The position numbers and the translations under genes were made by a program. The notes under the pieces were generated by a model. It did not search any database, was not told where the DNA came from, and saw only the letters and a list, made by a program, of their open reading frames with translations. From NCBI GenBank assembly GCA_024709955.1, contig JANJVS010000031.1, forward strand, positions 1 to 41,716: a DNA stretch of 41,716 nucleotides, read 5' to 3'. Positions 293-41,312 of this stretch are shown here, one piece after another (the stretch's first letter is position 1; the number at the start of each line of letters is the position of its first letter). This DNA comes from Rhodocyclaceae bacterium (GTDB taxonomy: Bacteria; Pseudomonadota; Gammaproteobacteria; Burkholderiales; Rhodocyclaceae).

Positions 293-693
293 AGACCACG
301 CGAAAAGTCGGCGGTGGCGGGACGGTGCCCTCCGCCGCCCGGCTCGACCGGATCGTCGCCGATGCCCGTGCCGCCGCGGCAAAACGCGAACAGGGCTACC
401 GCGAACAGGCCCTCAAGATCTATCCCTGGGTCTGCGGCCGCTGCGCGCGCAGCTTCACCCACGCCAACCTGCGCGAACTGACCGTGCATCACCGCGACCA
501 CAACCACGACAACAACCTGCCCGACGGCAGCAACTGGGAACTGCTCTGCCTCTATTGCCACGACAACGAGCACCAGAAACAGCTCGAAGCCGCGGGTGGC
601 GCATCCGCCGCGAGCGGCGACAAGGGCGGCGGCGCGACCCATTCGCCCTTCGCCGACCTCAAGGCCATGCTCGCCCGGAAGGACGCGAAATAG
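289..693 (+). CDS. yajD: YajD-family HNH nuclease-like protein
   Basis: This 134-residue protein closely resembles E. coli YajD. It has the core [16 protein letters not shown], then [16 protein letters not shown], then [17 protein letters not shown]. The two CxxC pairs (CGRC and CLYC) probably bind a structural zinc, and the HH plus later N and H are the HNH nuclease ligands. The family C-terminus PFADLKAML is present. The true substrate of YajD is unknown. The first ~30 residues are basic, glycine-rich and unlike YajD; they contain one copy of the 26-bp dispersed repeat (303-328), read as KVGGGGTV. The gene overlaps its upstream neighbour by 4 bases and probably the downstream one as well. 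Confidence 0.9.
303..328 (+). repeat. 26-bp dispersed repeat, copy 1
   Basis: The sequence is AAAAGTCGGCG followed by GTGGCGGGACGGTGC. It differs from the copy at 10577-10602 (opposite strand) at one position and from that at 21122-21147 at two. It lies inside the yajD coding region just after the start codon, in the poorly conserved N-terminus. Confidence 0.8.
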
Positions 694-1064
694 CCGCATC
701 CTGCCCCTGCGGCCGTCCCCTGCCCTACCCATCCTGCTGCGGCCGCTGGCATGCCGGCGCGCCGGCGCCGGACGCCGAGAGCCTGATGCGCTCGCGCTAC
801 AGCGCCTTCGTGCTCGGCCTGCGCGACTATCTGCTGGTCACCTGGCACCCGGCCACCCGGCCGGCCGAACTGGACCTGGCGACCGATCCGCCGACCAGAT
901 GGCTCGGCCTGGAGGTCAAGCGTGCCGCCGCCACCGGCGCCGACTCGGCGAGCGTCGAATTCGTCGCCCGCTACAAGATCGGCGGCCGCGCCCATCGTCT
1001 GCACGAAACCAGCCGCTTCGTCAGGGAAAACGGCCGCTGGTACTACCTCGACGGCAACTACTGA
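690..1064 (+). CDS. YchJ-like SEC-C motif protein
   Basis: The protein starts with a zinc-binding SEC-C motif, [17 protein letters not shown], followed by the YchJ domain: [23 protein letters not shown], then WLGLEV, then a beta-rich end with [11 protein letters not shown] and the terminal [14 protein letters not shown]. coli YchJ has a second C-terminal SEC-C motif that is absent here, so this is a short form. The start is doubtful. By family alignment it should lie about four residues before the first cysteine, where the only candidate is ATA at 690, overlapping the yajD stop (ATAG). The nearest conventional start in frame is TTG at 555, deep inside yajD, which would add about 45 arginine-rich residues. 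I chose 690 on family length. Function of the family is unknown. Confidence 0.8.
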
Positions 1065-1354
1065 GTTCCTGCAATAACTCGGTGCAGGCTAACTTGAGCG
1101 CTGCAAAAGTTAAGCGCAAAAACTCGGCGCCGGTAGAACGGTAATGCGGAGCGCAGTCCAGGCAGCCTTTCCGCCGCGCCGCCGCAAGGAAAGGCGGCAC
1201 GCGCCGAAGGTGCAATCCGCTCTTGCGGATAATCAGTCCTCCCCGTAATGGACGCGCGCAGGGCGCACCAAGTCTCCCCTTCCGCGAGGAAGGGGACGGG
1301 GGGATGGCGGGACACTGTATCCTTCGCCCTTTGCATCGACCGGAAGAATCGACC
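1065..1354. other. Structured intergenic region with diverged repeat copy
   Basis: This 290-bp spacer has no convincing gene. It holds an imperfect direct repeat (AACTCGGTGCAGG near 1077 and AACTCGGCGCCGG near 1121) and a diverged copy of the 26-bp repeat at 1119-1144 (20 of 26 positions match). Three inverted repeats follow: GCCTTTCC/GGAAAGGC near 1168-1198, ATCCGC-TCTT-GCGGAT near 1214-1229, and TCCCCTTCC-GCGA-GGAAGGGGA near 1274-1295 (9-bp perfect stem, 4-base loop). They could form RNA structures in the rdgC leader or be decayed repeats. No T-run follows any of them, so they do not look like standard terminators. Confidence 0.6.
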
Positions 1355-2269
1355 ATGTGGTTTCGCAACCTGCGCCTCTATCGCCTGCAACGCGAGCTGA
1401 ATCTCGACCTGGAACGCCTTGACGCCCTGTTGGCGAAGAAGCCGCTGCAGCGCTGCGGCAGCTTCGAGATGGCCAGCCGCGGCTGGGTGTTTCCGCGCCA
1501 GGAGGGCGCCTTCGTCCATGCCGTGAATCGCCAGTGGCTGCTGGCCCTCGGCGTCGAGCAGAAGCTGCTGCCTTCCACCGTGATCCGCCAGACCGCCCAG
1601 GAGCGCGCCGCCGCCATCGAGGCGGAACAGGGCCGCAAGGTCGGCCGCAAGGAACTGCGCGACATCGTCGAGCGCGTGGCCGAGGAACTGATGCCCAAGG
1701 CCTTCACGCGCCGGCGCACCACCTGGGGCTGGCTCGACCCGGTCCATGGCTGGCTGGTGATCGACGCCGGCTCCGACGCGCGCGCCGACGAATTCATCGA
1801 GACCTTTCTCTCCTCCCTCGACGATGGCGCCGCGCTGTGCGCGCCGCGCGTGCTGCAGACGCAGATTTCGCCGGTCAGCGCCATGACCGACTGGCTGGCC
1901 GGCAGCGAGGCGCCCGCCGGCTTCAGCATCGACAGTGACCTCGAACTGCGCTCCGCCGCCGAGGCCCAGTCGGCGATCCGCTACGTCCACCATGCACTGG
2001 CGGGCCCGGAGATCGCCGAGCACATCGCCGCCGGCAAGATCGCCACCAAACTCGGCATGACCTGGAACGACCGCGTCTCCTTCGTGCTGACCGACAAGCT
2101 GCACATCAAGCGCCTCGCCTTCCTCGACGTGCTCAAGGAGCAGGCCGAGCAGTCGGGAGCGACGGCGGAGGAACAGTTCGACGGCGACTTCGCCCTGATG
2201 ACCGGCGAACTTGCCCATCTGTTCAATGACCTGCTCGTCGCCCTCGGCGGCGAGATGAAGCCGGAATAA
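1355..2269 (+). CDS. rdgC: Recombination-associated protein RdgC
   Basis: The 304-residue product matches RdgC along its whole length: the start MWFRNLRLYRL, the segment CGSFEMASRGWVFPR, the central TRRRTTWGWLDPVHGWLVIDA and the C-terminal LGMTWNDRVSFVLTDKLHIKRLAFLDVL. In E. coli RdgC forms a ring-shaped dimer that binds duplex DNA without sequence specificity and limits RecA filament formation; in Neisseria it is linked to pilin variation. The ATG at 1355 gives the conserved N-terminus; the frame is open upstream but unlike the family. The gene stands alone, convergent with hldD, with 36 bp between the stop codons and no obvious terminator. Confidence 0.95.
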   Translation: MWFRNLRLYRLQRELNLDLERLDALLAKKPLQRCGSFEMASRGWVFPRQEGAFVHAVNRQWLLALGVEQKLLPSTVIRQTAQERAAAIEAEQGRKVGRKELRDIVERVAEELMPKAFTRRRTTWGWLDPVHGWLVIDAGSDARADEFIETFLSSLDDGAALCAPRVLQTQISPVSAMTDWLAGSEAPAGFSIDSDLELRSAAEAQSAIRYVHHALAGPEIAEHIAAGKIATKLGMTWNDRVSFVLTDKLHIKRLAFLDVLKEQAEQSGATAEEQFDGDFALMTGELAHLFNDLLVALGGEMKPE

Positions 2270-2305
2270 GCACCGTGGCCCTGCCCGGGCCGCCCGCTAA
2301 AGCGG

Positions 2306-3307
2306 TCAGGCCGCGCCGGCGAGACGGGCGACGTAGCGGCCAACGCCCTCTTCCACGGTCGCGAAATCGGCCTGGTAGCCGGCGGCGCGCAGGGCCGTCA
2401 TGTCGGCCTGGGTGAAGCTCTGGTACTTGCCCTTGAGGGCCTCGGGAAAAGCGACGTACTCGACGATGCCCTGGGCGACCATCTCGGCCAGCGCCAGCGC
2501 CGGCTTGCCTTCGAGGGCGCGGCAGGCATTCACCGTCGCGTGGGCGATGTCGTTGAAGGGCTGGGCGCGGCCGGTGCCGAGGTTGAAGATGCCCGACTTT
2601 TCCGGATGGTCGAGGAAGAACATGTTCACCTTGACCACGTCGTCGATATAGACGAAGTCGCGGCTCTGCTCGCCGTTGCCGTAACCGTCGCAGCCCTCGA
2701 ACAGCTTCACCTTGCCGTGCTCGCGGTACTGGTTGAAGTGGTGGAAGGCCACCGAGGCCATGCGGCCCTTGTGCTGTTCGCGCGGGCCGTAGACGTTGAA
2801 GTAGCGGAAACCGACCACCTGGGACGAAAAGTCGGCGCTGGCGAGACGCTGGCGCACCACCTGGTCGAAGAGGAACTTCGAGTAGCCATAGACGTTGAGC
2901 GGCCCCTCGTGCGCGCGCGCTTCCTTGAAGACGCGGCCGGCGCCGTACACCGAGGCGCTCGACGCGTAGAGGAACTGCGTCTCGTGGTCGAGGCAGAAAT
3001 CCAGCAGCGTGCTGGTGTAGCGGTAGTTGTTCTCCATCATGTAGTGGCCGTCGGTCTCCATGGTGTCCGAACAGGCCCCTTCATGGAAGATCGCCTCCAC
3101 CGCGCCGTCGAAATGGCCGGCCTGCACCATCTCGATGAACTCGTGCTTGTCGAGATAGTCGGCGATCTCGCAATCGATCAGGTTCTTGAACTTGTCGGCC
3201 TTCTTCAGGTTGTCGACGGCGATGACCTTGTCGATGCCGCGCTCGTTGAGCGCCTTGACGATGTTGGCGCCGATAAACCCGCAGGCGCCGGTGACGATGT
3301 GGTACAT
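2306..3307 (-). CDS. hldD: ADP-L-glycero-D-manno-heptose 6-epimerase
   Basis: This 333-residue short-chain dehydrogenase/reductase epimerase converts ADP-D-glycero-D-manno-heptose to the L-glycero form for the LPS inner core. The Rossmann motif GACGFIG is at residues 7-13, the substrate loop ASSASVYG near 115-122 and the catalytic YxxxK as YGYSK near 141-145; [10 protein letters not shown] is a family signature. It follows rfaE1 with only a 2-bp gap and ends the long minus-strand cluster. The loop [10 protein letters not shown] carries a copy of the dispersed repeat (2827-2852). The extreme C-terminal coding DNA (2315-2329) also matches the second half of the repeat. Confidence 0.96.
2827..2852 (+). 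repeat. 26-bp dispersed repeat, copy in hldD
   Basis: It reads AAAAGTCGGCGCTGG followed by CGAGACGCTGG on the plus strand, opposite to hldD. It differs from the copy at 10577-10602 at three of 26 positions. The gene reads through it as L-A-S-A-D-F-S-S, a frame unrelated to those used in the other host genes. Confidence 0.7.
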
Positions 3308-3309
3308 GC

Positions 3310-4233: not shown

Positions 4234-4240
4234 GGGTGAG

Positions 4241-5440: not shown

Positions 5441-5442
5441 GC

Positions 5443-5745: not shown

Positions 5746-5756
5746 GACATCAGGCC

Positions 5757-6044: not shown

Positions 6045-6066
6045 GACCGGAACTTTCCGCCCTGGC

Positions 6067-7808: not shown

Positions 7809-9773
7809 TTAAAAAACGGCAGCTTGGAGACGGGCCTTGCGGACGCTGTCCATCACGGCTGCCACGGCTTCTTCGATGGTCAACGCGGTCGTATCGACCA
7901 GGTCGGCATCGTCGCATTGCTTCAGGGGGGCCACGCTTCTCGCGGCATCGCGGGCGTCGCGCTCCCTGAGGTCCTTCACAATGTCCTGCAAAAGGGGGCG
8001 CATGTTATCAGGCATTCCCTTGTCGATCAACTGTTTATAGCGCCTTTCGCCACGCGCCTCGGCCGAGGCGGTCAAAAACACCTTGACCGGGGCGTCGGGG
8101 AACACCACCGAGCCCATGTCGCGCCCGTCGGCCACCAGTCCGGGGAAGCGCCGGTAGGCCCGCTGGCGGTCCAGCAGGGCCGTACGCACCGCCGGCAAGG
8201 CGGCCACTTTCGAGGCGCCGACACCGACATCCTCGGCGCGGATCGCCTCGGTAACCTCTTCTCCGAAAAGAAGAATCTTGTCGCCGACAAACTCCGCCGG
8301 TAGTTCGGCGGCAACCTTGGCCACGGCGGCCTCGTCGTCGAGAGCCACGCCGGCTTTCAGCGCCGCCAAGGCCGTCAGGCGATAGAGCGCCCCGCTGTCG
8401 AGAAAATGGAAGCCCAGCGCCTGGGCCACGCGCTGGGCCACCGTGCCCTTGCCCGAGGCCGAGGGGCCGTCGATGGCGATCACCGGGGCGGCGATTTGCG
8501 CGAAGGCGTCGAAGTAGTGCGGAAAGGTCTTGGCCACGCACTTGGGATCGTTGATGCGCACCGGCACCCCTCCCAGCGCGGCGAGGGAGAAGCACATCGC
8601 CATGCGGTGGTCGTCGTAGGTGTCGATGGCGGCATTGTTCAGCAAACTCGGCGCTGGCAGGACGGTGAGCGCGTCCGCCCCCTCCTCCACCGTCGCGCCC
8701 AGCTTGCGCAGTTCCGCGGCCATCGCGGCGATGCGGTCGGTTTCCTTGACGCGCCAGGAGGCGATGTTGCGCAGGGTGCATGGGCCGTCGGCGAACAGCG
8801 CGGCCACCGCCAGAGTCATCGCCGCGTCGGGGATGTGGTTGAGGTCGAGGTCGAAGGCCTTGAGCTTGCCGGCGGCCGGCGCGGAGGCCTCGATGTGGTT
8901 GTCGCCCCAGACGATGCGCGCGCCCATGGTTTCCAGTGCGGCGGCGAACCTGATGTCGCCCTGGATGCTCCGCAGGCCGACGCCCTCGACGCGCACCGGG
9001 CCGCCGCCGATGGCGCCCGCCGCGAGGAAATAGGAGGCCGCCGAGGCGTCGCCTTCCACATGCAGCAGGCCGGGGCTGCGATAGCGCTGGCCGGCGGGGA
9101 TCGTGAAGCGCCCCCACCCGTCGCGCTGAACGGTCACGCCGAAGCGGGCCATGAGGTTCAGCGTGATCTCGATGTAGGGCTTGGAGATGAGCTCGGTGGT
9201 CATCTCGATGACCGCCGTCTCGCCCGTCAGTGGCAGCGCCATCAGCAAGGCGGTGAGGAACTGAGAGGACACGTCGCCGCGCACGCGGATCGGCGCGGCG
9301 AGCCTCGCAGCCGCGGGATGAATCTCCAGCGGCGGATAACCCTCGTTGCCGGCGTAGCGCACGTCGCAGCCGATCTGGCGCAGGCCGTCCACGAGATCGC
9401 CGATCGGCCGCTCGTGCATGCGCGGCACGCCGGAGAGCTTGTAGCGGCCGCCCGAGAGCGCCAGCGCCGCGGTCAGCGGCCGGATCGCCGTGCCGGCGTT
9501 GCCCATGAACAGCTCGGCATCCTTGCCGGGAAAAACGCCGGCGCAGCCGGACACCCGATAGGCGTTCGTTCCAATCGCCGTGACGCCGACGCCCAGCTGT
9601 TGCAGCGCCGCGAGCATGACGCGCGTGTCGTCGGAATCGAGCAGGTCGCGGATCTCGGTCTCGCCCGCCGCCAGCGCGGCCAGCAGCAGCATGCGGTTGG
9701 AAATGCTCTTGGAGCCCGGCAGCTTGACCGTGCCGGCGGCCCGCTGCAGCGCGGGCAGGTCGAGATGATCCAT
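7809..9773 (-). CDS. aroA-cmk: Bifunctional EPSP synthase / cytidylate kinase fusion
   Basis: A single 654-residue frame joins two enzymes. Residues ~1-428 are AroA (5-enolpyruvylshikimate-3-phosphate synthase): [46 protein letters not shown] and [14 protein letters not shown]. Residues ~429-654 are cytidylate kinase: P-loop [37 protein letters not shown] and the basic lid RRYKQL. There is essentially no linker between [12 protein letters not shown] and APVIAID. The first half catalyses the sixth step of the shikimate pathway; the second phosphorylates (d)CMP. The two genes are adjacent in many Proteobacteria, and fused forms are known in betaproteobacteria. No stop or frameshift separates the halves. 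The start overlaps the tyrA stop (TGATG). Confidence 0.95.
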
Positions 9774-10702
9774 CACTTCCCTTGCGTGTTGAAGGTATCG
9801 AGCCAGGCGTCGCGCCGCGTGCGCGCGGTGGCGAACATCGCTTCGAGGCCGGCGCTGTCCGCGCTCGCGAGCAGCACGCGGGTGCGCAACAGCTCGGCCA
9901 TGTAGGCGTCCAGTTCCTTGAGCAGCGCATTGCGGTTGGCGATGCAGATGTCGCGCCACATCTCGGGATGGCTGCTGGCGATGCGCGTGAAGTCGCGGAA
10001 GCCGCTGGCGGCGAAACCGAACAGCTGGTCGGCGTTGTCGCGCAGCGCCAGGTCATGCACCAGCGCGAAGGCGAGCAGGTGCGGCAGGTGGCTCACGGCG
10101 GCGAAGACGCGGTCATGTTCCTCGGGAGCCAGTTCGGACACCCGGGCGCCGCAGGTTTCCCAGGCGGCGCGCACCGCCTGGACGGACTCGGGCATGTTCT
10201 CCGGCAGGGGCGTGAGCACCACGCGCTTGCCGACATAGAGATCGGCCCTGGCGGCGGCGACGCCGCTTTTCTCGGCGCCGGCGATCGGATGACCGGGCAC
10301 GAACTGGCCGATCTTGGCGCCCAGGGCGGCGCGCGCGGCGGCGACCACGTCGGCCTTGGTGCTGCCGCCGTCGGTGACGAGGGTGTGGGCGTCGAGATGG
10401 GGCGCCATGGCCCGCATCACCGCTTCCATCTGGCCGACCGGCATGCCGAGCAGGACGAGGTCGGCGCCCTCGAGCGCGCTCGCCCAGTCGGTGGCGATTT
10501 CGTCGATCACGCCGAGTTGCAGCGCTTGCTCCAGCGGCGCGCGGGTGCGGCCCATGCCGACGATATGCAGCTCGTCGCACCGTCCCGCCAGCGCCGACTT
10601 TTCGCGTCGTGCCGCGAAATATTCCTTTACGGCCAGCGCGAAGGAACCGCCGATCAGGCCGACGCCGCAGACGACGATCTTGCTGGGACGCGCGCCGGCC
10701 AT
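9773..10702 (-). CDS. tyrA: Prephenate dehydrogenase
   Basis: The 309-residue NAD(P)-dependent enzyme decarboxylates prephenate to 4-hydroxyphenylpyruvate in tyrosine synthesis; some family members also take arogenate. It has the Rossmann GVGLIGGS at residues 13-20, [11 protein letters not shown] near 110-120, [12 protein letters not shown] near 135-146 with the catalytic His, and [12 protein letters not shown] near 205-216. The loop between the first helix and second strand is about 14 residues longer than I expect, reading [22 protein letters not shown]. Residues 34-42 of it are encoded by a dispersed repeat copy (10577-10602). It overlaps hisC upstream and aroA downstream (TGATG each). Confidence 0.94.
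10577..10602 (-). repeat. 26-bp dispersed repeat, copy in tyrA
   Basis: On the minus strand it reads AAAAGTCGGCGCTGG then CGGGACGGTGC, one mismatch from the copy at 303-328 and one from that at 21122-21147. It encodes EKSALAGRC in an extended loop of TyrA. The five bases before it (ACGCG) are also shared with copy 1. Confidence 0.85.
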
Positions 10703-11790
10703 CAGAGCGATATTTCCAACGCTTCGAGGAAGCGCGCGTTCTCGGTTTCGAGGCCGATGGTCACGCGCAGGTGGTTCGGCAGGCCGTAGCCGCCGATCGG
10801 ACGCACGATGACGCCCTGCTTGAGCAGTTTCTGGTTCACCGCCGCGCCGTCGGCGACGGCGAAGGTGACGAAGTTGCCGTGGGAGGGAATGTGTTCGAGG
10901 CCCAGGCGCTTGAGGCCGGCGACGATCTGCTCCATGCCCTTGCGGTTGAGCTCGAAGGATTCGGCGACGAACAGATGGTCGTCGAGGGCCGCGCAGGCCG
11001 CCGCGATCGCCAGGTTATTGACGTTGAAGGGCTGGCGCACGCGGTTGATCAGGTCGGCCACCTCGGGCGCGGCGACGGCATAGCCGACGCGCAGGCCGGC
11101 GAGGCCGTAGATCTTCGAGAAGGTGCGCGTGACGATCAGGTTCGGGAATTCCTTGATCCAGGCCACGGTGTCGGCGCGATCCGCCGGCGCCAGGTATTCG
11201 TTGTAGGCCTCGTCGAGCACGACGGCGACGTCGGCCGGCACGGACTGCAGGAAGGCGCGCAGTTCCGGGTAAGGCAGGAAGTTGCCGGTCGGGTTGTTCG
11301 GGTTGGCGATCCAGACGACGCGGGTGTCGGGCCGGATCGCCGCCTTCATCGCGGCGAGGTCGTGGCCATAGTGCTTCGCCGGGGCGACGACGCACGCCGC
11401 GCCGGTGGACAGGGTCGCCAGCGGATAGACGGCGAAGGCGTGCTGGGAGAATACCGCCGAGCGGCCCGGCGCAAGGAACACGCGTGCAGCCAGGTCGAGC
11501 ACGTCGTTCGAGCCGTTGCCAAGCACCACCTGGTTCTGCCCCACGCCCAACCGCTCGGCCAGCGCGGCGATGAGTTCGAACTGGTCGGGATAACGCTCGA
11601 TGCCGGCGCTGGCGGCCGCGACGGCGGCGCGCGCCTTCGGGCTCATGCCCAGCGGATTCTCGTTGGAGGCGAGCTTGACGATCCGTTCGACCGGCAGCCC
11701 CATTTCGCGCGCCAGGGCGGTGATCGGCTTGCCCGGCACGTAGGGGGAAATGCCGCGGATATAGGACAGCGCCTGTTCGGTGATGCTCAT
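10702..11790 (-). CDS. hisC: Histidinol-phosphate aminotransferase
   Basis: This 362-residue PLP-dependent class I/II aminotransferase has LASNENPLGMSPKA near residues 38-51, GNGSNDVLDLAARVF near 95-109, ANPNNPTGNF, VVLDEAYNEY, and the PLP lysine region TFSKIYGLAGLRVGYA. HisC makes histidinol phosphate from imidazole acetol phosphate. Because it lies between pheA and tyrA it may also, or mainly, transaminate phenylpyruvate and 4-hydroxyphenylpyruvate; this cannot be settled from sequence alone. The stop overlaps the tyrA start and it begins 27 bp after pheA. Confidence 0.93.
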   Translation of the reverse strand: MSITEQALSYIRGISPYVPGKPITALAREMGLPVERIVKLASNENPLGMSPKARAAVAAASAGIERYPDQFELIAALAERLGVGQNQVVLGNGSNDVLDLAARVFLAPGRSAVFSQHAFAVYPLATLSTGAACVVAPAKHYGHDLAAMKAAIRPDTRVVWIANPNNPTGNFLPYPELRAFLQSVPADVAVVLDEAYNEYLAPADRADTVAWIKEFPNLIVTRTFSKIYGLAGLRVGYAVAAPEVADLINRVRQPFNVNNLAIAAACAALDDHLFVAESFELNRKGMEQIVAGLKRLGLEHIPSHGNFVTFAVADGAAVNQKLLKQGVIVRPIGGYGLPNHLRVTIGLETENARFLEALEISL

Positions 11791-11817
11791 GCGAACCCCG
11801 CTAGAAAAAATATGGAT

Positions 11818-12900
11818 TTAATTCCCGGCCTTGGGATAGGAGCCGAGCTCCTTGAGGAAGCCGACGCAGCCGCGCAGATCCTCCAATGCGGCGGCAACCT
11901 TGGCGTCCTGGCGATGGCCGTCGATATCGACGAAGAACACGTATTCCCAGCGGCTGTTGCCGAAGCCGCGCGCGGGACGCGACTCGAAGCGCGACATCGA
12001 GACGCCGTGCTGCTTGAGCGGGGTCAGCAGATCGTGCACCGCCCCCGGCTTGTTCTGTGCCGAGCAGACGAAGGAGGTCTTGTCGAGGCCCGACGGTCCC
12101 GCGTCGTGGTTGGCCAGCACGACGAAGCGGGTCGTGTTGTTGGGGTCGTCCTCGATGTTGGCGGCGAGGATGTCGAGCTCGTAGAGCCGCGCCGCCGCCT
12201 CGCCGGCGATGGCACAGGCCTCCGGGTCCTGCGCCGCCATGCGCGCCGCCTCGGCGTTGCTCGCCACCGGCACGCGCGGCAGGTTCGGCAGGTTGCGGTT
12301 GAGCCACTCGTGGCACTGGGCGAGCGACTGGGCGTGGGAATACAGCTTCTTCGCCTCGGTCAGCGAGGCCGCCTTGGTCATCAGGTTCTGGTGGATGCGC
12401 AGATTGACCTCGCCGCAAATCATCAGCGGCGAGGTCAGCATCTGGTCGAGGGTGCGGCCGACCGAGCCCTCCGTCGAGTTCTCGATGGGCACCACGCCGT
12501 AATCGACCTGCCCCGCCTCGACGGCGCGGAACACGTCGTCGATGGTCAGGAAGGGCGTGAAGGTCGGTGCCGAGCCGAAATGCTTTTTCGCCGCCGACTC
12601 GGTAAAGGTGCCGGCAGGGCCGAAATAGGCGATCTTGAGCGGCTGTTCGAGCGCCAGGCAGGCCGACATCACCTCGCGGAAGATCGTCCGGACGGCCGTC
12701 TCGGGCAGCGGTCCGGGATTGGTTTCCGCGATGCGGCGCAGCACCTGGGCCTCGCGCTCGGGGCGGTAGATGTTGCCGTGCTTGATCGCGCCGACGCGCT
12801 GCGCGAGCCGCGCCCGCTCGGAGAGCAGGCGCAGCACCTCGCCGTCAATATGGTCGATGCCGTCGCGCAGCTTGGCGAGCTCTTCGTGTTGGTCAGCCAT
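11818..12900 (-). CDS. pheA: Chorismate mutase / prephenate dehydratase (P-protein)
   Basis: The 360-residue enzyme has three parts: an AroQ chorismate mutase helix bundle (residues ~1-90, [23 protein letters not shown] and [12 protein letters not shown]), a prephenate dehydratase domain (~91-270, [29 protein letters not shown], with the catalytic TTRFVV segment), and a C-terminal ACT domain (~275-355, [19 protein letters not shown] and [20 protein letters not shown]). The ESRP motif suggests phenylalanine feedback control. It converts chorismate to phenylpyruvate. It overlaps serC by 8 bp and sits upstream of hisC and tyrA in an aromatic amino acid run. Confidence 0.96.
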
Positions 12901-13990
12901 GGCGTCGCTCGAAGTCCTTCATGAAATCCACGAGGGCGGCGACGCCCTCCATGCTCATCGCGTTGTAGATCGAGGCGCGCATGCCGCCGACCGTCTTGTG
13001 GCCCTTGAGCTGAACCAGTCCGGCCGCCTTCGCCTCGTCCAGGAATGCCTGGTTGAGCGCTTCGTCCCTGAGGAAGAACGGCACGTTCATGCGCGAGCGG
13101 CAGGCCTTGGCGACGCGGTTCTCGTAGAGGCCGGAAGCGTCGATGCAGTCGTAGAGCAGCCGCGCCTTGGCGATGTTCTGCCGCTCGATGGCGGCAACGC
13201 CGCCCTGGGCCTTGAGCCACTTGAACACCAGGCCGGCGACGTAGATCGAATAAGTCGGCGGCGTGTTGTACATCGAATCGTTGTCGGCCACCAACTGGTA
13301 GTCGAAGGCCGTGGGACAGGCCGGCAGCGCATGACCGATCAGGTCGTCGCGGACGATGACGAAGGTCAGGCCCGCCGGACCGATGTTCTTCTGCGCGCCG
13401 CCGAAGATCAGGCCGTACTTGGACACGTCGATCGGCCGCGACAGGATGTGGGAGGACATGTCCGCCACCACCGGCACGTCGCCGCGGCCGATGCGCCCCA
13501 GGTCCGGCTCGAAGGGATATTCGACGCCGACGATGGTCTCGTTGGTGCAGGTGAACACGTAGGACGGAGCGGCGGACAGCCGCCACTCTGCCATGGGCGG
13601 CACGTCGAGGAAGCCACCCGTCGAGGTATCCACGGCGATGTTCGTTTTGCCGTACTTGCGTGCCTCCTTCTCCGACTTGACCGACCAGGTGCCGGTGATG
13701 ACGTAGTCGGCGGAGCCGGTGCGACCGATCAGGTTGAGCGGAATGATCGCGTTCTCGCCGATCGCCCCGCCCTGCATGAACAGCACCTGGTAGTTGTCGG
13801 GAATCGCCAGCAGTTCGCGGAAATCGGCGAGGGCCTCGTCGTGGATGGCCATGTATTCCTTGCCGCGGTGGCTCATTTCCATCACGCTCATGCCGCAACC
13901 GTGCCAGTCGAGCATTTCCTCGGCGGCCTGGCGCAGCACCGCCTCGGGCAACACCGCCGGGCCGGCGCTGAAGTTGAATACGCGGGACAC
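12893..13990 (-). CDS. serC: Phosphoserine aminotransferase
   Basis: The 365-residue PLP enzyme begins [18 protein letters not shown]. It has EMSHRGKEY and FMQGGAI near the cofactor site, [12 protein letters not shown] with the PLP Asp, and [17 protein letters not shown] with the Schiff-base lysine. It converts 3-phosphohydroxypyruvate to phosphoserine, and also acts in pyridoxal phosphate synthesis in many bacteria. It follows gyrA with a 6-bp gap and overlaps pheA by 8 bp, the gyrA-serC-pheA-hisC-tyrA-aroA order familiar from betaproteobacteria. Confidence 0.97.
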
Positions 13991-13996
13991 CCTTGC

Positions 13997-16546
<2,550 letters not shown>

Positions 16547-16589
16547 GTAGGCAGCCGCCCCGCTTTGCGGGCTATTCCAAAAGCGCGGA

Positions 16590-16598
16590 ATTCTAGCA
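16590..16598 (-). promoter_or_regulatory. gyrA: Possible gyrA promoter (extended -10)
   Basis: On the minus strand the spacer reads TGCTAGAAT, an extended -10 element, 44 bases before the gyrA start codon. The -35 region is weak. Two inverted repeats lie nearby: CCCGC-AAA-GCGGG in the leader (near 16559-16571) and CCGGACG/CGTCCGG just upstream (16610-16628). Confidence 0.45.
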
Positions 16599-16680
16599 CG
16601 CATCGCCCTCCGGACGGCATTCGTCCGGCATTCGCGGATTTACGCTAAGGTACTGTCGCCTCGCATATTTCGACGACGAC

Positions 16681-18036
16681 ATGAGCGCTCAGAATCCTCC
16701 CCGCCCCCCCCCAGAAGGACTGGAAGTCGACCAAATCATCGATGCCCGCTGGGTCATTCCCATCGAACCCGCCGGCCTGGTCCTTGAAAACCACAGTCTG
16801 GCCATCCAGGGCGATCGCATCCTCGACCTGCTCCCCACGGCGGAAGCCGCGACGCGCTACCGCGCCAGGCGCCGTCTGCATCTCGACGCCCATGTGCTGA
16901 TGCCGGGCCTCATCAACCTGCATACCCATGCGGCCATGTGCCTGTTGCGCGGCTTCGCCGACGACATGCCCCTGATGCGCTGGCTCAAGGAGCGCATCTG
17001 GCCCGCGGAAAGCCGCCACGTCGGCCCCGATTTCGTATATGACGGCACCCTCCTCGCTTGCTGGGAGATGCTGCGCGGCGGCATCACCTGCTTCAACGAC
17101 ATGTACTTTTTCCCCGCCGCCGCCGCCAAGGCCGCCCTGGCGGCCGGAATGCGGGCCGCTCTCGGCATCACGGTCTTCGAGTTTCCCAGCGCCTACGGCA
17201 GCAGCGCCGCGGACTATCTGGACAAGGGCCTGGCGACGCGGGACGCCCTGCGCGACGAAGCATCGATCTCCTTCTGCCTCGCCCCCCATGCGCCCTATAC
17301 CGTCGCGGACCCCAGCTTCGAACGGATTGTCGCGCTCGCCAACCAGCTCGACCTGCCGATCCACATCCACCTCCACGAAACCCTGGACGAAATCGCCGGC
17401 AGCCATAAGGACCATGGCATGCGGCCCTTCGAGCGCCTGCGGCGGCTCGGGCTGCTGGGCCCCAGGCTGGTCGCCGTCCATGCTGTGCATCTGGAGCAGG
17501 AGGAAATCGCCGCCCTGGCCTTTCACGCTTGTCACGTCGCCCACTGCCCCACCTCGAACATGAAGCTCGCCAGCGGCATCGCACCTGTCGGCGCCATGCT
17601 GGATCACGGAATCGGCATTGGACTAGGCAGCGATAGCGCCGCCAGCAACAACCGGCTCGACCTGTTCCAGGAAATGCGCCACGCGGCGCTGCTGGCCAAG
17701 GCAGCCACCCACGATGCGGAGTGCCTTCCGGCCCACCAGGCGCTCGCCATGGCGACCATCGAAGGCGCACGCGCCTTGGGACTGGAGGGACAGATCGGCT
17801 CCCTGCTCCCCGGCAAGGCCGCCTACCTGATGGCGGTACGACTGGACGACTGGCAGTTGCTACCCTGCTTCGATCCCGCATCCCATCTGGTTTACGCGGC
17901 CGGACGCGAATCCGTCAGCCATGTCTGGGTCGCCGGAAAGTTGCGCATAGACGACAAACAACCGGTTGACCTGGATATCAAGGCATTGCTGCATAAACTT
18001 AATGTGTGGCAGAATATGATTTCGAATCAAAGCTAG
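16681..18036 (+). CDS. mtaD: TRZ/ATZ amidohydrolase, MTA/SAH deaminase-like
   Basis: This 451-residue metal-dependent amidohydrolase has HxH in GLINLHTHAAM near residue 80, the metal His in IHIHLHET near 225, VHAVHL near 262, and the catalytic Asp in GIGLGSDSAASNN near 317. This set matches 5'-methylthioadenosine/S-adenosylhomocysteine deaminases of the ATZ/TRZ family. Other cytosine or guanine deaminase-like activities remain possible because substrate specificity is hard to read from motifs. It is divergent from gyrA with 134 bp between starts and lies two genes upstream of ubiG, a SAM-dependent methyltransferase that produces SAH. Confidence 0.88.
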   Translation: MSAQNPPRPPPEGLEVDQIIDARWVIPIEPAGLVLENHSLAIQGDRILDLLPTAEAATRYRARRRLHLDAHVLMPGLINLHTHAAMCLLRGFADDMPLMRWLKERIWPAESRHVGPDFVYDGTLLACWEMLRGGITCFNDMYFFPAAAAKAALAAGMRAALGITVFEFPSAYGSSAADYLDKGLATRDALRDEASISFCLAPHAPYTVADPSFERIVALANQLDLPIHIHLHETLDEIAGSHKDHGMRPFERLRRLGLLGPRLVAVHAVHLEQEEIAALAFHACHVAHCPTSNMKLASGIAPVGAMLDHGIGIGLGSDSAASNNRLDLFQEMRHAALLAKAATHDAECLPAHQALAMATIEGARALGLEGQIGSLLPGKAAYLMAVRLDDWQLLPCFDPASHLVYAAGRESVSHVWVAGKLRIDDKQPVDLDIKALLHKLNVWQNMISNQS

Positions 18037-18124
18037 TTTGGTTGCTTCAGGGTAGCTTTGCCGCTAAGCAAAAACGTTCAAACGGTTTCAGTAAACTCCA
18101 ACGCATTTACGAGGGAAGACAAAC

Positions 18125-18790: not shown

Positions 18791-18808
18791 GCCGAACACG
18801 GTGCCGAC

Positions 18809-18836
18809 AAAAAGCCCTGCCTAGCAGGGCTTTTTT
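18809..18836 (+). terminator. Rho-independent terminator after the OmpA-family gene
   Basis: AAAGCCCTGC-CTA-GCAGGGCTTT forms a 10-bp stem with a 3-base loop followed by a T-run, 19 bp after the stop codon. Confidence 0.93.
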
Positions 18837-18897
18837 CTTAGGTGCCCCGACCAGAGACCCGGCTTTGCCTCTTCACGTACTCCATCCCGCATACCAC

Positions 18898-19602: not shown

Positions 19603-19603
19603 T

Positions 19604-30914: not shown

Positions 30915-31733
30915 ATGAGCATCGATCACTACGAGAATTTCCCCGTTGCTTCGCTGTTGCTGCCTGCCCCGCTGCGTCCGGCGGTGGCGGCGATCTATGT
31001 TTTCGCCCGCACGGCCGACGATTTCGCCGACGAAGGCGACCTGCCGGCGGCGGAGCGCCTGCGCCTGCTCGCCGGCTACCAGGCGGAACTCGACCGCATC
31101 GAACGCAACGAAGCGACGGAACATCCGGTCTTCCTGCGCCTGCGCCCGTTCATCAGCCAATACGGCCTGCCGCTGCAGCTGTTCCGCGACCTGCTCGACG
31201 CCTTCGTCCAGGACGTGGGCAAGGACCGCTACGCCAGCTTCGACGAATTGCTGGACTACTGCCGCCGCTCCGCCGATCCGGTCGGCCGCCTGCTGCTCCA
31301 CCTGTTCGGCGCCGCGACACCCGAGAACCTGCGCCGCTCCGATTGCGTCTGCTCGGCGCTGCAGCTCATCAACCACTGGCAGGATGTCGGCATCGACGCC
31401 GGCAAGGGCGCGCGTGGACGCATCTACCTGCCCCAGGAAGACCTCGCGCGCTTCGGCGTCGCCGAGGAGACCGTCCTGCACCGTGCCGCCAGCGCCGAGT
31501 TTCGCGCCCTGCTGCGCTTCCAGGTGGAGCGCGCCCGCGCGCTGATGCTGGCGGGCGCGCCGCTCGGCCGCGACCTGCCCGGCCGCATCGGCCTCGAAAT
31601 CCGCGCCATCGTCGCCGGCGGCCTGCGCATCCTCGACAAGATCGAGGCCGTCGGCTGCGACGTCTTCACGCACCGGCCGACGCTCGGCGGCCTCGACTGG
31701 CCGCGTGTCCTTTTCCAGGCCCTCCGCCCATGA
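30915..31733 (+). CDS. hpnC: Squalene synthase subunit HpnC
   Basis: The 272-residue squalene/phytoene synthase family member acts in the three-step HpnCDE route, in which HpnC converts presqualene diphosphate to hydroxysqualene. It starts DHYENFPVASLLLP, typical of HpnC. The first acidic motif is degenerate relative to DxxxD (ARTADDFADEGD near residue 35), and the second region reads CSALQLINHWQDVGIDAGKGARGRIYLPQEDL near 155-185. The stop overlaps the hpnD start (ATGA). The start codon has no good ribosome site and lies 9 bases after a TATACT box. Confidence 0.93.
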   Translation: MSIDHYENFPVASLLLPAPLRPAVAAIYVFARTADDFADEGDLPAAERLRLLAGYQAELDRIERNEATEHPVFLRLRPFISQYGLPLQLFRDLLDAFVQDVGKDRYASFDELLDYCRRSADPVGRLLLHLFGAATPENLRRSDCVCSALQLINHWQDVGIDAGKGARGRIYLPQEDLARFGVAEETVLHRAASAEFRALLRFQVERARALMLAGAPLGRDLPGRIGLEIRAIVAGGLRILDKIEAVGCDVFTHRPTLGGLDWPRVLFQALRP

Positions 31734-32563: not shown

Positions 32564-33894
32564 CCGCCAGAGTTGCCGTGGTGGGGGCCGGCTACGCCGG
32601 CCTCGCCGCCGCGGTGGAACTCGCCGCCGCCGGCATCGGCGTCGATGTCTTCGAGGCCTCGCGCACCCTCGGCGGCCGCGCGCGCGCCGTCGACCACGAC
32701 GGCGTCCGCCTCGACAACGGCGCCCATATCCTCGTCGGCGCCTATCGCGAGACGCTGCGGCTCATGGCAAAAGTCGGCGCCGGCGAGACGGTGGTCCGGC
32801 GCCACCCGCTGCGGCTCGAATTCCCCGGCCGCATGCGCCTGGCCGCCCCGCGCCTGCCGGCCCCGCTGCACCTGGCCTGGGCGCTGCTGACGGCGCGCGG
32901 ACTGAACCTGCGGGAGAAGTTCGCCGCCATCGGTTTCATGCGCGCCCAGCAGGCGCGCGGCTTCCGCCTCGCCGCGGACATGACGGCCGCCGAACTGTTC
33001 GCCGCCCACGGCCAGCCGGAGCGCGTGCGCCGCTACCTCTGGGAACCGCTCTGCCTCGCCGCACTCAACACCCCGGTCGCCATCGCCTCGGCCCAAGTCT
33101 TCCTCAACGTGCTGCGCGACAGCCTCGCCGCCGGGCGCGCCGCCTCGGACCTGCTGCTGCCGGCGAGCGACTTTTCCAGCCTGTTCCCCGATCCGGCGGC
33201 GCGCTTCGTCGAGTCTCGGGGCGGACGCATCCTGCGCGCCACGCGCGTCGCCGGCCTGGAAAAAGTCGGCGCCGGCTGGACGGTGGCGGGCGCGGAAACC
33301 CATGGCCCCTACGATCAGTTGATCCTCGCCGTCGCCCCCTACCACCTGCCGCGCCTGCTCGCCCCCCATCCGGAATTCGCCGCGCTGATCGAGCAGATCG
33401 CCGGCCTGTGCTGGCAGCCCATCGTCACCGCCTACCTGCAATATCCGGCAAGCGTGCGCCTGCCCTTCCCCATGGCCGGGCTCGACGGCGGCCACGCCCA
33501 ATGGCTGTTCGACCGCGGCGCCCTGTGCGGCCAGCCCGGCATGCTCGCGGCGGTGATCAGCGGCGAGGGCCCCTACCAGGCGCTCGGCCACGCCGAACTC
33601 GCGGCGGCGATCCATGGCGAGATCGGCCGCCTGCTGCCCGGCCTGCCGCCGCCGCGGCGCCACTGGGTGATCGAGGAAAAGCGCGCCACCTTCGCCTGCA
33701 CGCCCGGTCTGCGGCGTCCGGAGACCGCCACCGCCCGCGCCGACGTCTGGCTCGCGGGGGACTATGTCGCCGGCGATTACCCGGCGACGCTGGAAGGCGC
33801 GGTGCGCAGCGGCACGCATGCCGCCCGGCGCGTCGCGGCCGCGCTCACTGCATCTCGAACAGCTTGTGGAAGCCCCCGATCCGGAGGGCCTTGA
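32548..33894 (+). CDS. hpnE: Hydroxysqualene dehydroxylase HpnE
   Basis: The 448-residue flavoprotein of the amine oxidase/phytoene desaturase type reduces hydroxysqualene to squalene. It has the FAD motif VAVVGAGYAGLAAAVELAAAG near residues 9-29, GGRARA, and the C-terminal FAD segment VWLAGDYVAGDYPATLEGAVRSG. Two near-identical copies of the dispersed repeat lie inside it, encoding KVGAGETVV (residues 75-83) and KVGAGWTVA (239-247). The last ~16 codons overlap the convergent STAS gene by 50 bp, and the tail after AARRVAAAL is unlike the family, suggesting the original stop was lost. Confidence 0.93.
   Translation: MAGRVAARVAVVGAGYAGLAAAVELAAAGIGVDVFEASRTLGGRARAVDHDGVRLDNGAHILVGAYRETLRLMAKVGAGETVVRRHPLRLEFPGRMRLAAPRLPAPLHLAWALLTARGLNLREKFAAIGFMRAQQARGFRLAADMTAAELFAAHGQPERVRRYLWEPLCLAALNTPVAIASAQVFLNVLRDSLAAGRAASDLLLPASDFSSLFPDPAARFVESRGGRILRATRVAGLEKVGAGWTVAGAETHGPYDQLILAVAPYHLPRLLAPHPEFAALIEQIAGLCWQPIVTAYLQYPASVRLPFPMAGLDGGHAQWLFDRGALCGQPGMLAAVISGEGPYQALGHAELAAAIHGEIGRLLPGLPPPRRHWVIEEKRATFACTPGLRRPETATARADVWLAGDYVAGDYPATLEGAVRSGTHAARRVAAALTASRTACGSPRSGGP
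32769..32794 (+). repeat. 26-bp dispersed repeat, first copy in hpnE
   Basis: It reads AAAAGTCGGCGCCGG then CGAGACGGTGG, two mismatches from the copy at 21122-21147, and encodes KVGAGETVV. Confidence 0.75.
33261..33286 (+). repeat. 26-bp dispersed repeat, second copy in hpnE
   Basis: It reads AAAAGTCGGCGCCGG then CTGGACGGTGG, differing from the first hpnE copy at only two adjacent bases, 492 bp downstream and in the same frame. Confidence 0.75.
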
Positions 33895-34162: not shown

Positions 34163-34238
34163 TCTTTCCCTCTCCCTGGGTATGGCCCGATCCAATGTCC
34201 CGTTCATCCTAGCACTTACGGGCATGGCGACGCACGAG

Positions 34239-36562: not shown

Positions 36563-36583
36563 CTGGATATTATTGGAGCACAA

Positions 36584-37636
36584 GTGTCGGAACGCCTTCC
36601 GAAAGGGCTGGCAAAGGTATCACAGCTCGCCGAATTTGACGCCATCATCGACGCCCGTTCGCCGGCCGAATACGCCGAGGACCACCTGCCCGGCGCCATC
36701 AGCTGCCCGGTGCTATCGAACGAGGAACGTGCCCGCGTCGGCACCCTCTACAAGCAGGTCTCGCCCTTCGAGGCGAAGAAGATCGGCGCCGTGCTGGTGG
36801 CCCGCAACGTCGCCGCCAACATCGAGGCGAACTTCCTCGACCAGCCGAAGAGCTGGCGCCCCCTCGTCTATTGCTGGCGCGGCGGCCAGCGCTCTGGAGC
36901 TTTTACTCATATTCTGCGCGAGATCGGCTGGAACGCCCACCGCCTCGAAGGCGGCTACAAGGCCTGGCGTCAACACGTGGTCGCGGAGCTCGCCGTGCTG
37001 CCGGCGCGCTTCGCCTTCCGGGTGATCTCCGGCCCCACCGGCAGCGCGAAAAGCCGCGTCCTCGAAGCCCTGGCGCGCCAGGGCGCCCAGGTGCTGCACC
37101 TGGAAGAGCTCGCCGCCCACAAGGGTTCGGTGCTCGGCAACCTGCCGGACGCGCCGCAGCCGGCGCAGAAGGGCTTCGAATCCAAGCTGTTCGCCGCCCT
37201 CGCCGCCTTCGATCCGCAACGCCCCGTGTTCGTCGAGGCCGAAAGCCGGCGCATCGGCGCGCTGCAGGTGCCCGACGCCCTGATCGCCGCGATGCGCGCC
37301 GCGCCCTGCCTGCGCATCGAGGCGCACCGTGCCGCCAGAGCCGACTTTCTGCTGGGCGACTACGACTACTTCCTCGCCCGCCCCGCCTGGCTGGTCCAGC
37401 AGCTCGGCCATCTGCGCGGCCTGCAGAGCAACGAAATCCTCGCCCGCTGGACCGGGCTCGTCGAGGCCGGCGACTTCCGCGCCCTCGTCGAGGAACTGCT
37501 CGAAAAGCACTACGACCCGCTCTACCAGCGCTCCCAGGACAAGAACTACCGCTACTCCGACGCGCCGGTCTTCGTCGCCGACGAGCTTTCGGAGGAAGGT
37601 ATCGAGGACGTCGCCCGGCGGATTCTCGGCAACTAA
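36584..37636 (+). CDS. mnmH: tRNA 2-selenouridine synthase
   Basis: The 350-residue protein (also SelU or YbbB) has an N-terminal rhodanese domain with the active Cys in RPLVYCWRGGQRSGAF near residue 97. A P-loop domain follows with Walker A VISGPTGSAKSRVL near 150, and EAESRRIGALQVP near 225. It replaces the sulfur of 2-thiouridine at the wobble base of Lys, Glu and Gln tRNAs with selenium, using selenophosphate from SelD. The GTG at 36584 has a GGAG site. It is divergent from selD with 21 bp between start codons, linking donor and user of selenophosphate. The stop overlaps the next convergent gene by 4 bp. Confidence 0.95.
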   Translation: MSERLPKGLAKVSQLAEFDAIIDARSPAEYAEDHLPGAISCPVLSNEERARVGTLYKQVSPFEAKKIGAVLVARNVAANIEANFLDQPKSWRPLVYCWRGGQRSGAFTHILREIGWNAHRLEGGYKAWRQHVVAELAVLPARFAFRVISGPTGSAKSRVLEALARQGAQVLHLEELAAHKGSVLGNLPDAPQPAQKGFESKLFAALAAFDPQRPVFVEAESRRIGALQVPDALIAAMRAAPCLRIEAHRAARADFLLGDYDYFLARPAWLVQQLGHLRGLQSNEILARWTGLVEAGDFRALVEELLEKHYDPLYQRSQDKNYRYSDAPVFVADELSEEGIEDVARRILGN

Positions 37637-38178: not shown

Positions 38179-38179
38179 A

Positions 38180-38266
38180 TTCACCGTCTCGTCATCCGCT
38201 ACGGCGAGGAGAGCGTTGTTTGCTCGACCGCCTGGTAGCGCAGTTGTTTCATCAGCGCCGACTTTT
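38180..38266 (-). repeat. Split copy of the dispersed repeat in the rsuA-methyltransferase spacer
   Basis: On the minus strand AAAAGTCGGCGCTG (38266-38253) matches the first half of the repeat and begins within the rsuA stop codon. The second half appears as GACGAGACGGTGAA (38193-38180) just before the methyltransferase start. The 59 bases between encode a possible 17-codon peptide starting MKQLRYQAVEQ. The inserted part contains an imperfect echo of the repeat end (GATGAAACAACTG). Confidence 0.5.
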
Positions 38267-38978
38267 ACAAACAGGCGAGTTGCTCGGCCGTCAGATGGCA
38301 CCACTTGCCTTCCGCCAGCCCCAGATCCTCCAGCCGCAGCCCGCCGATGGCGGTGCGCCGCAGGGCGACGCAGTGGTGGCCGGCGGCGGCGAGCATGCGC
38401 TTGACCTGATGGTATTTGCCCATGTCGATGGTCATCTCGATCCGATGGCTGTCGAGCTGGCATGCCCGGGCGGCCAGCGGCGCGGGCTCGTCGGTCAGCT
38501 TGACGCCGGCCACGAGTTGGGCGACGAGTTCGGGCGTTACCGGGTCCTGGGTCGTCGCCACGTAGGTTTTCGGCACATGGCGCTTGGGGTGGGACTGGGC
38601 GTGGATGAAGCCGCCGTCGTCGGAAAGCAGCAGCAGGCCGGTCGTGTCGTGGTCGAGGCGGCCGACCGGCTGCACGTCGCGCAGGGTAAATTGGTCGGGC
38701 AGCAGGCTCAGCACGCCGCGATGGACGGCCGGCCGGCGCGAGCACTCGACGCCGGCGGGCTTGTTGAGCGCCACATAGACATGCTCGCGATACACCCAGG
38801 GTTCGCTGTCGACGGTGAAATGCAGCCCCCCCTGCGCCATCGGGTCGAATTCGGCGCGGATGTCGTCCATGACCTCGCCGTCGATCTCCACCAGCCCGTC
38901 GAGCACCATATAGCGGCAGGCTTTTTTCGTGCCGAAGCCCTGCGATTGCAGGATTTTTTCCATAGTCAGTTTTCTCAT
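38265..38978 (-). CDS. rsuA: 16S rRNA pseudouridine(516) synthase RsuA
   Basis: The 237-residue protein has an S4-like N-terminal domain (KILQSQGFGTKKACRYMVLDGLVEIDGE), then the pseudouridine synthase core with VYVALNKPAGVECS, the catalytic Asp in QPVGRLDHDTTGLLLLSDDG, and KTYVATT, and the C-terminal KYHQVKRMLAAAGHHCVALRRTAIGGLRL. It modifies U516 of 16S rRNA. Starts at 38978 (MRKLTMEKIL) and 38963 (MEKIL) are both possible; neither has a strong ribosome site. Confidence 0.92.
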   Translation of the reverse strand: MRKLTMEKILQSQGFGTKKACRYMVLDGLVEIDGEVMDDIRAEFDPMAQGGLHFTVDSEPWVYREHVYVALNKPAGVECSRRPAVHRGVLSLLPDQFTLRDVQPVGRLDHDTTGLLLLSDDGGFIHAQSHPKRHVPKTYVATTQDPVTPELVAQLVAGVKLTDEPAPLAARACQLDSHRIEMTIDMGKYHQVKRMLAAAGHHCVALRRTAIGGLRLEDLGLAEGKWCHLTAEQLACL

Positions 38979-39076
38979 GGCCGGCACTTTAGCAAGAGTC
39001 GGGCCCATTGCGAGTACACTTCGCGCCTTTCCCGCGCGCATCGGCCGCGCCGTTTCACCCCAGACAAGGATTTCCC

Positions 39077-40708
<1,632 letters not shown>

Positions 40709-40749
40709 GCCGGCGGCGCAAGCAGTTCGTCATCCCGAGGAGAAGCAGC

Positions 40750-41151
40750 GTGAAAGACATCGTCTGGAGCAATATCCTCAGCATCGGCGTCGAGGAAGTC
40801 GATGAGGACCACCGCAAGCTGGTGAGCATCTTCAACACCCTCAACCACGCCGTCGGCGACGGGGAATCCCCGGAATACCTGGCGGCGACGCTGGAGGAAC
40901 TGATCAACTGCACGGTCTGGCACTTCAGCCACGAAGAGCGCCTGATGCTCAAGTACCAGTACAAGGACATGGACGCGCACAAGGCCGAGCACCGCGAGCT
41001 GATCGAGACCGCCAGGGAGCTGCAGCAAACGCTGCTGCGGGGCGGCGGGGCGATGGCGGAACGGGACATCGAAATCCTGGAGCGCTGGCTGACCGAGCAC
41101 ATCCTCACCGCCGACATGCGGCTGGGCGCCTATCTATCCCATGTGATGTAG
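40750..41151 (+). CDS. Bacteriohemerythrin
   Basis: The 133-residue four-helix protein keeps the di-iron ligand set: DEDHRKLV, HFSHEERLM (His and Glu), HKAEHREL, and EHILTADMRLG (His and Asp). It begins IVWSNILSIGVEEVDEDH, typical of single-domain bacteriohemerythrins that bind oxygen reversibly. A role in oxygen delivery or sensing fits a microaerophilic lifestyle but is inferred. The GTG at 40750 is preceded by a strong GAGGAGAAG site. It follows ybiT by 41 bp. Confidence 0.93.
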   Translation: MKDIVWSNILSIGVEEVDEDHRKLVSIFNTLNHAVGDGESPEYLAATLEELINCTVWHFSHEERLMLKYQYKDMDAHKAEHRELIETARELQQTLLRGGGAMAERDIEILERWLTEHILTADMRLGAYLSHVM

Positions 41152-41163
41152 GCGGCGCGGCGC

Positions 41164-41216
41164 TCACCGTCTCGCCAGCGCGCCCCGCAGGAAGTACCCT
41201 TGGGGTGCCGACTTTT
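41164..41216 (-). repeat. Dispersed repeat interrupted by a 27-bp hairpin-like insert
   Basis: On the minus strand it begins AAAAGTCGGC (41216-41207), continues with a 27-base segment starting ACCCCAAGGG, and ends GCTGGCGAGACGGTGA (41179-41164). Removing the 27 bases restores the 26-bp unit. The insert has CCCC and GGGG near its ends and an inner AGG/CCT pairing. Confidence 0.65.
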
Positions 41217-41286
41217 GTTCCGGCCGCTGCGCTTAACCGGCCGAGCCGGTTAGCCTCCACGAAAGCCGGGAAGGCCTGAGGCGCTC

Positions 41287-41312
41287 TCACCGTCCCACCA
41301 GCGGCGGCTTTT
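41287..41312 (-). repeat. Diverged dispersed repeat copy
   Basis: On the minus strand it reads AAAAGCCGCCGCTGG then TGGGACGGTGA, four mismatches from the tyrA copy. It lies in the spacer before the methyltransferase remnant. Confidence 0.55.

Follow-up and report, generated by a model that had tools for sequence, protein, structure and literature searches.

A dispersed 24-26-bp word in Rhodocyclaceae genomes with the profile of a DNA uptake sequence

The DNA described here is a stretch of 41,716 nucleotides from a Rhodocyclaceae bacterium (GenBank assembly GCA_024709955.1, contig JANJVS010000031.1), which is referred to at its full length as the window. It has a GC content of 66 % and corresponds to contig C200 of a 3.5-Mb genome in 237 contigs. 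Scattered over its genes and spacers lies a non-palindromic word of 24-26 bp, (A)AAAGTCGGCGCYGGCGRSACGGYG, that occurs several hundred times in this genome and that, judging from its profile, may work like the DNA uptake sequences (DUS) of Neisseria and the uptake signal sequences (USS) of Haemophilus. A first-pass annotation of the window had described it as a 26-bp dispersed repeat. With the gene products of the window assigned by Pfam, its copies are placed as follows:

303-328 (+): one mismatch, at the 5' edge of an HNH-endonuclease gene
1119-1144 (+): decayed copy with six mismatches, in the spacer after the gene 786-1064
2827-2852 (+): one mismatch, antisense in an NAD-dependent epimerase gene, 2306-3307 (-)
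8643-8668 (+): four mismatches, antisense in an EPSP synthase-cytidylate kinase gene, 7809-9776 (-)
10577-10602 (-): perfect, sense in a prephenate dehydrogenase gene, 9773-10702 (-)
21122-21147 (-): perfect, sense in a solute-binding protein (SBP_bac_5) gene, 19604-21796 (-)
31478-31503 (-): three mismatches, antisense in a squalene/phytoene synthase gene, 30915-31733 (+); several relatives have a copy at this position, for the most part in the dialect of their own
32769-32794 (+): perfect, sense in an amine-oxidase-fold gene, 32578-33894 (+); site common to eight relatives
33261-33286 (+): one mismatch, sense in the same amine-oxidase-fold gene
37324-37349 (-): three mismatches, antisense in a rhodanese-domain gene, 36584-37636 (+)
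38241-38266 (-): half copy with seven mismatches, at background level, at the 3' end of the gene 38265-39008 (-)
41207-41216 (-): exact 10-mer AAAAGTCGGC, in a spacer
41287-41312 (-): four mismatches, in the spacer 41152-41375

All six copies that the first-pass annotation had listed with at most three mismatches are present, and two further three-mismatch copies were found on the minus strand at 31478 and 37324. Its four-mismatch copy at 41287 is likewise real and lies on the minus strand, its 20/26 copy at 1119 carries six mismatches, and a four-mismatch copy at 8643 (+) that it did not list can be added. Its two split copies contain the half copy at 38241 and the exact 10-mer at 41207, respectively. 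This 10-mer had been counted eight times where well under one occurrence was expected, and we obtain the same eight exact occurrences against a mean of 0.12 in shuffled windows; the 26-mer with up to three mismatches yields eight copies in the window and none in 100 window shuffles. The only known RNA families in the window are two tRNAs. Between 30915 and 33894, two neighbouring squalene/phytoene synthase genes are followed by the amine-oxidase-fold gene, an arrangement that we take to resemble the hopanoid HpnC-HpnD-HpnE cluster.

Over the whole genome, 591 copies with up to three mismatches were counted (286 plus, 305 minus), while the reversed pattern gave none, an over-representation of one word on both strands as it is characteristic of DUS and USS. 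Finer counts were made in an own-genome sample of 441,716 bases, consisting of 20 stretches of 20 kb from contigs chosen off the match list and the window itself, in which genes were called by a simple hexamer caller, so that genic and intergenic figures are approximate. Here, copies with zero to six mismatches number 12, 27, 20, 13, 14, 6 and 5, respectively. The reversed control is empty below seven mismatches, which leaves a clear gap between signal and background, and as matches with seven mismatches number 33 versus 11 in the control, copies of this kind, the split ones included, stand at the edge of the background. In this sample, which is 92.6 % coding, the 86 copies with up to four mismatches divide into 43 in genes, 34 in spacers and nine at gene edges, so that spacers and edges are 12-13 times as densely occupied as genes.

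These numbers already refute chance or codon usage as the source of the copies, an explanation to which we give practically no credence. The word is indeed easily encoded, as a mean of 4.9 matches (range 2-8) survives in the called coding DNA of the sample over 20 synonymous-codon shuffles, and this non-zero value suggests that the proteins themselves are bent towards the word. The actual coding DNA, however, holds 43 copies, the reversed control is zero genome-wide, and copies are denser in spacers than in genes. A codon-preserving shuffle had been named by the first-pass annotation as the test that could refute the repeat; the repeat withstood it, and the accompanying view that protein conservation does not explain copies spread over genes and spacers is borne out.

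A sequence logo was built from 52 own copies with 60-base flanks, taken from the window and from 30 loci fetched for perfect copies. Information is confined to the span from the first A to the TG near the end, giving the word AAAAGTCGGCGCYGGCGRGACGGTG(S) with sharp edges on both sides, flanks that are not conserved and weak RG positions in the middle. A single word folds weakly, with an RNA folding energy of -7.9 kcal/mol.

The genic copies are found in both orientations and in several frames, and those outside genes favour gene 3' ends. In the own sample, counted at up to five mismatches, convergent spacers contain 5.8 copies/kb, tandem spacers 1.26 and divergent spacers 0.57, and of the 23 copies in tandem spacers, 18 are no more than 30 bases away from the stop codon upstream of them. 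For comparison, the first 400 kb of two further genomes, G017 and G476, the latter from another genus, were taken irrespective of their copies. The 3'-end preference is clear in G017 as well, where convergent spacers hold 2.84 copies/kb versus 0.41 in divergent ones, and weak in G476.

After close pairs had been merged, spacing was compared with that of copies placed at random within their own class, gene or spacer. It proved more even than this null in all three genomes, with coefficients of variation (CV) of 0.64 versus 0.82 in the own genome (p 0.007), 0.69 versus 0.96 in G017 for copies with up to four mismatches (0 of 2000 random placements) and 0.76 versus 0.98 in G476 (p 0.0035), resembling the relatively even spread of DUS and USS. 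For USS, the available text of PMC7811141 speaks of an uneven distribution in the introduction and of a relatively even one in the discussion. No strand polarity of the kind known from FtsK orienting polar sequences was seen in G017, whose 75 exact plus copies fall 27, 13, 14 and 21 into the four quarters; its first 717 kb contain 28 plus and 25 minus exact copies, the matches listed comprising 25 of the 76 minus copies. A replication-polarity or segregation signal is therefore unsupported, as plus copies occur in all four quarters. Of the longest stretches free of copies in G017 and G476, three were annotated in part, as single cases and through ten proteins, and contain island-like genes: those of G017 encode a type I restriction-modification system and a molybdopterin oxidoreductase cluster, and that of G476 is a low-GC region with a weak TrwB-like match and an ammonium transporter. 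In the own genome, positions 10603-21121 of the window form a long copy-free stretch.

Within the own genus, 18 of 19 genomes carry 48-591 copies, the own genome included, in a set of 61 genomes made up of the own one and 60 relatives; the remaining one, G005 (87 % complete), has none. In a sample of the family, 15 of 150 genomes hold at least 100 copies, and these belong to six of 68 genera. Among 399 genomes sampled from the order, four are motif-rich, namely G282, which belongs to the same family, and three members of the own genus, and 28 others have one to five copies, in some cases several on one contig. Titles of public records among the matches listed mostly read Rhodocyclaceae, Sulfuritalea or Sulfurisoma, the latter two being assigned to Sterolibacteriaceae in the NCBI taxonomy; the cultured Sulfurisoma sediminicola BSN1 has at least one exact copy. 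Two genomes that are otherwise nearly motif-free have several copies clustered within 5-41 kb, at L289-L291 (G489:C1:1455000-1510000) and at L292 (G070:C3), and these clusters are probably DNA received from motif-rich relatives. In G002, 47 of 48 matches are located on the 2.56-Mb main contig C1, the sole exception being a three-mismatch match, and two other contigs make up about 9 % of the genome by rounded size. The viral contig L360 contains five copies (883-2237), four of them spaced 316 bases apart and the fifth after another 385 bases; their flanks are alike, as they would be in a longer tandem repeat.

The word differs between lineages, as do DUS and USS. Own copies carry ACGGTG, and one T of the own copies is replaced by C in the relatives in 24 of 26 gapless ortholog pairs, which represent six sites, five of them in the window. 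Copies of G002 end in ACGGCA, as do those of G017 in a sample picked by a pattern ending in C; in G016, the copies listed often show GGCGGCG, and G455 copies carry GTCGACGC, the GTCGAC form. That many scattered sites have shifted together calls for a recogniser acting in trans, and we infer that the word is read by such a factor.

How copies come into being was examined at orthologous sites. At 37324, the motif stands at the same place in ten relatives without gaps, and G005 (L165) has unrelated sequence of equal length there. A joint alignment with 2.67 Mb of fetched sequence provided 103 sites with a motif-bearing ortholog and 84 with a motif-less one; of the latter, which like the 95 below are not all independent, being partly orthologous to each other, and hardly cover intergenic copies, 36 are equal in length, 29 differ by a multiple of three up to 12 bases, five otherwise differ by up to 12, and seven each are longer or shorter by more than 12, so that 70 of 84 stay within 12 bases. 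When each flank was searched by itself, which keeps an insertion from disrupting the alignment, 104 sites had motif-bearing and 95 had motif-less orthologs; 46 of these 95 are of equal length and 27 more lie within 12 bases (73 of 95), nine are more than 12 bases longer (in two cases by 23-32 bases) and 13 more than 12 bases shorter. The prevalence of motif-less orthologs of equal or nearly equal length indicates that most copies originate where they stand, through mutation or through recombination of the DNA around them, as DUS and USS do. An ordinary insertion element was rejected for the ordinary copies by the length comparison under both alignment methods.

The exception to this in-place evolution is a 54-bp unit, composed of a motif-like arm, a loop, an inverted arm and TCACCTCG, which directly precedes a motif copy. 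Seven units were found at six sites, five sites with six units in 400 kb of G017 and one site in G002, two of the units being in tandem:

L306:9016-9150, G017
L306:13590-13670, G017
L307:8004-8085, G017
L315:14064-14145, G017
L298:about 8065-8120, G017
L261:about 2383-2440, G002

At one locus, G002 has the unit where G004 and G017 have the plain motif. As 54 is a multiple of three, its length fits the presence of the unit inside called genes at some sites.

Taken together, the profile of the word matches that of Neisseria DUS and Haemophilus USS, and we file it provisionally as working like an uptake sequence. Our preferred interpretation, held with moderate confidence, is that of a DNA uptake-sequence-like watermark recognised in trans by the DNA receptor of this lineage. 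The recogniser would then act in DNA uptake and would most likely be located on the type IV pilus machinery serving natural transformation. Fragments bearing the word would enter the cell preferentially and be integrated into the chromosome by recombination, and sites drifting towards the word would spread and stay. The expected outcome would be hundreds of evenly spaced copies on both strands wherever the harm is small, that is after gene ends and in tolerant gene stretches. Should the preference of the receptor shift, the sites would follow, giving rise to species dialects. According to the available text of PMC7811141, PMC2397512, PMC3630211 and PMC2346458, uptake words are abundant in both orientations, evolve in place, form dialects, are in part paired as terminators, and are poor in newly acquired DNA and in constrained coding DNA.

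Of the competence genes, ComEC is present in 18 of the 19 genus genomes (split in G016), with none in G018, which is 83 % complete; PilQ scores over the cut-off in 31 of the 32 genomes searched and a ComP_DUS-family pilin occurs in all 32, motif or not. The ComP-family pilin was considered as the discriminating receptor and dropped, as it is present regardless of the motif and a charge difference is not clear. Several findings weigh against an uptake role. Since PilQ, ComEC and the ComP-family pilin are also encoded in motif-free genomes, G005 among them, no receptor gene tracks the motif. The strongest result against the classical uptake route is the shortage of ComEA: two models detected no stand-alone ComEA in the genus, and in the family it exceeds the cut-off in two of 15 motif-rich genomes (G471 and G551) versus 46 of 135 others. 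In G002 and G009, shorter frames give two weak ComEA matches that fail to reach the cut-off. The frames with HHH_3 matches over the cut-off in the genus are about 600 to 1,700 residues long, most of them close to 800, and we presume them to be the Tex protein. ComEA is replaced in some other bacteria, for instance by ComH in Helicobacter. Further points on this side are the weak convergent preference of G476 (0.55 copies/kb versus 0.28 in divergent and 0.71 in tandem spacers), and the exact copies of G017, which by themselves show no evenness (CV 0.974 versus 0.973 for the null), a difference from the full set that is probably due to thinning. Some phage contigs in IMG/VR also carry the motif, as L364, L377, L346 and L376 do with two copies each beside phage-family genes, and the motif-containing 54-bp unit does insert in the G017/G002 group. 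Finally, in length the word exceeds the DUS and USS words, quoted at 9-12 nt, by a factor of about two, and its density is one copy per 3.4-6 kb versus about one per 1-1.5 kb as given in the accessible text of PMC2397512 and PMC7811141; the full H. influenzae USS model, as described in the latter, spans 31 bp.

Among the other explanations, a small mobile repeat of the REP/REPIN (repetitive extragenic palindrome), MITE (miniature inverted-repeat transposable element) or Rickettsia-palindrome-like type, inserting in genes and spacers, would account for the high number of dispersed copies and for the hairpin unit at motif sites of the G017/G002 group. It would leave extra DNA behind, yet only nine of 95 sites are longer by more than 12 bases against 13 that are shorter (seven and seven of 84 in the joint alignment); 26 inserted bases would break reading frames, yet genic copies are common, and neither the unconserved flanks nor the weak fold of the single word suits such an element. 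We regard it as largely refuted for the genic copies and as very improbable. Of the three options offered by the first-pass annotation, an uptake-like or protein-binding signal thus gains support, whereas a mobile repeat and the debris of a larger element lose it for ordinary copies, because the edges are sharp without conserved flanks and motif-less orthologs are mostly equal in length. A transcription-terminator cassette appears more improbable still and is rejected as the main role. In its favour, copies are enriched right after stop codons, and two inverted pairs with loops of 7-8 bases form very strong hairpins (-47.9 and -57.4 kcal/mol); these pairs, however, hold only four of the 86 copies, and most 3'-end copies are single. 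Moreover, 3'-end copies are barely more self-complementary to their surroundings than genic ones (mean scores 7.9 and 7.1, with 6.3 for random 26-mers; scores of at least 9 in 7 of 34, 7 of 43 and 11 of 150, respectively), and about half of all copies are located inside genes in either orientation.

A serious rival, though in our estimate an unlikely one, is a site bound by an abundant chromosome-organising protein, be it nucleoid, domain-boundary or terminator-associated, where evenness and dialects would result from selection for regular binding and from coevolution of protein and sites. Even spacing, the long and specific word and the joint dialect shift suit it well, and so does the lack of ComEA in 13 of the 15 motif-rich family genomes. 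It is harder to reconcile with half of the copies being genic and shaping protein, a costly arrangement for a regulatory site, with the scarcity of copies in divergent (promoter) spacers and with 47 of 48 G002 copies being on the main contig C1; neither strand polarity nor regional restriction was seen among the matches listed for G017. The uptake-sequence-like interpretation hence remains the one that we prefer. Its bolder form, which we advance only tentatively, would make the word a third, independently evolved self-DNA recognition system, with a word twice the DUS and USS cores, at least four dialects and carriers in several Rhodocyclaceae genera. As most carriers have no recognisable ComEA, this system would use a new periplasmic or pilus receptor, and in one species group the watermark sites would by now serve as landing sites for the 54-bp hairpin insert.

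Uptake words of this kind are known only from Neisseriaceae and Pasteurellaceae, according to the available text of PMC12616744, and the open-licence literature gave no report of a DNA uptake sequence for Rhodocyclaceae or of natural transformation for Sulfuritalea. Fragments of the motif matched papers there that by their entries are plant studies, and uptake signal sequences together with natural transformation in Betaproteobacteria led to a review of pathogen genomes. A third case, if true, would make it possible to test in earnest how such words originate, spread and pass from one dialect to another, and would imply a network of preferential gene exchange among largely uncultured environmental bacteria. 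If the word is no uptake word, it would be a chromosome-wide binding site of unusual length for no known protein, which would be equally worth finding.

Among known systems, REP/REPIN and MITE repeats are dispersed in hundreds of copies. The present word shares this feature and has a hairpin-bearing 54-bp derivative in one species group; unlike those repeats, its ordinary copies mostly leave the length unchanged, have a weak fold and occur within genes in several reading frames. With the USS of Pasteurellaceae, as portrayed in the accessible text of PMC7811141, it has in common that it arises in place, is scarce in coding and perhaps in new DNA and is relatively evenly spread; a superficial likeness is the long extended motif, whose 5' end is A-rich (AAAGTGCGGT in the part of PMC2346458 available, AAAGTCGGCG here), whereas the class of bacteria and the word itself are different. 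From the DUS of Neisseriaceae it differs by its unrelated sequence, by its length of 24-26 bp versus 10-12, and by the ComEA not found in most carriers examined. It resembles DUS, as far as these are covered in the accessible text of PMC3630211 and PMC2397512, in its hundreds or more of copies on both strands, one conserved word with species dialects, inverted pairs as terminators, conservation at orthologous sites and perhaps a bias towards the core genome.

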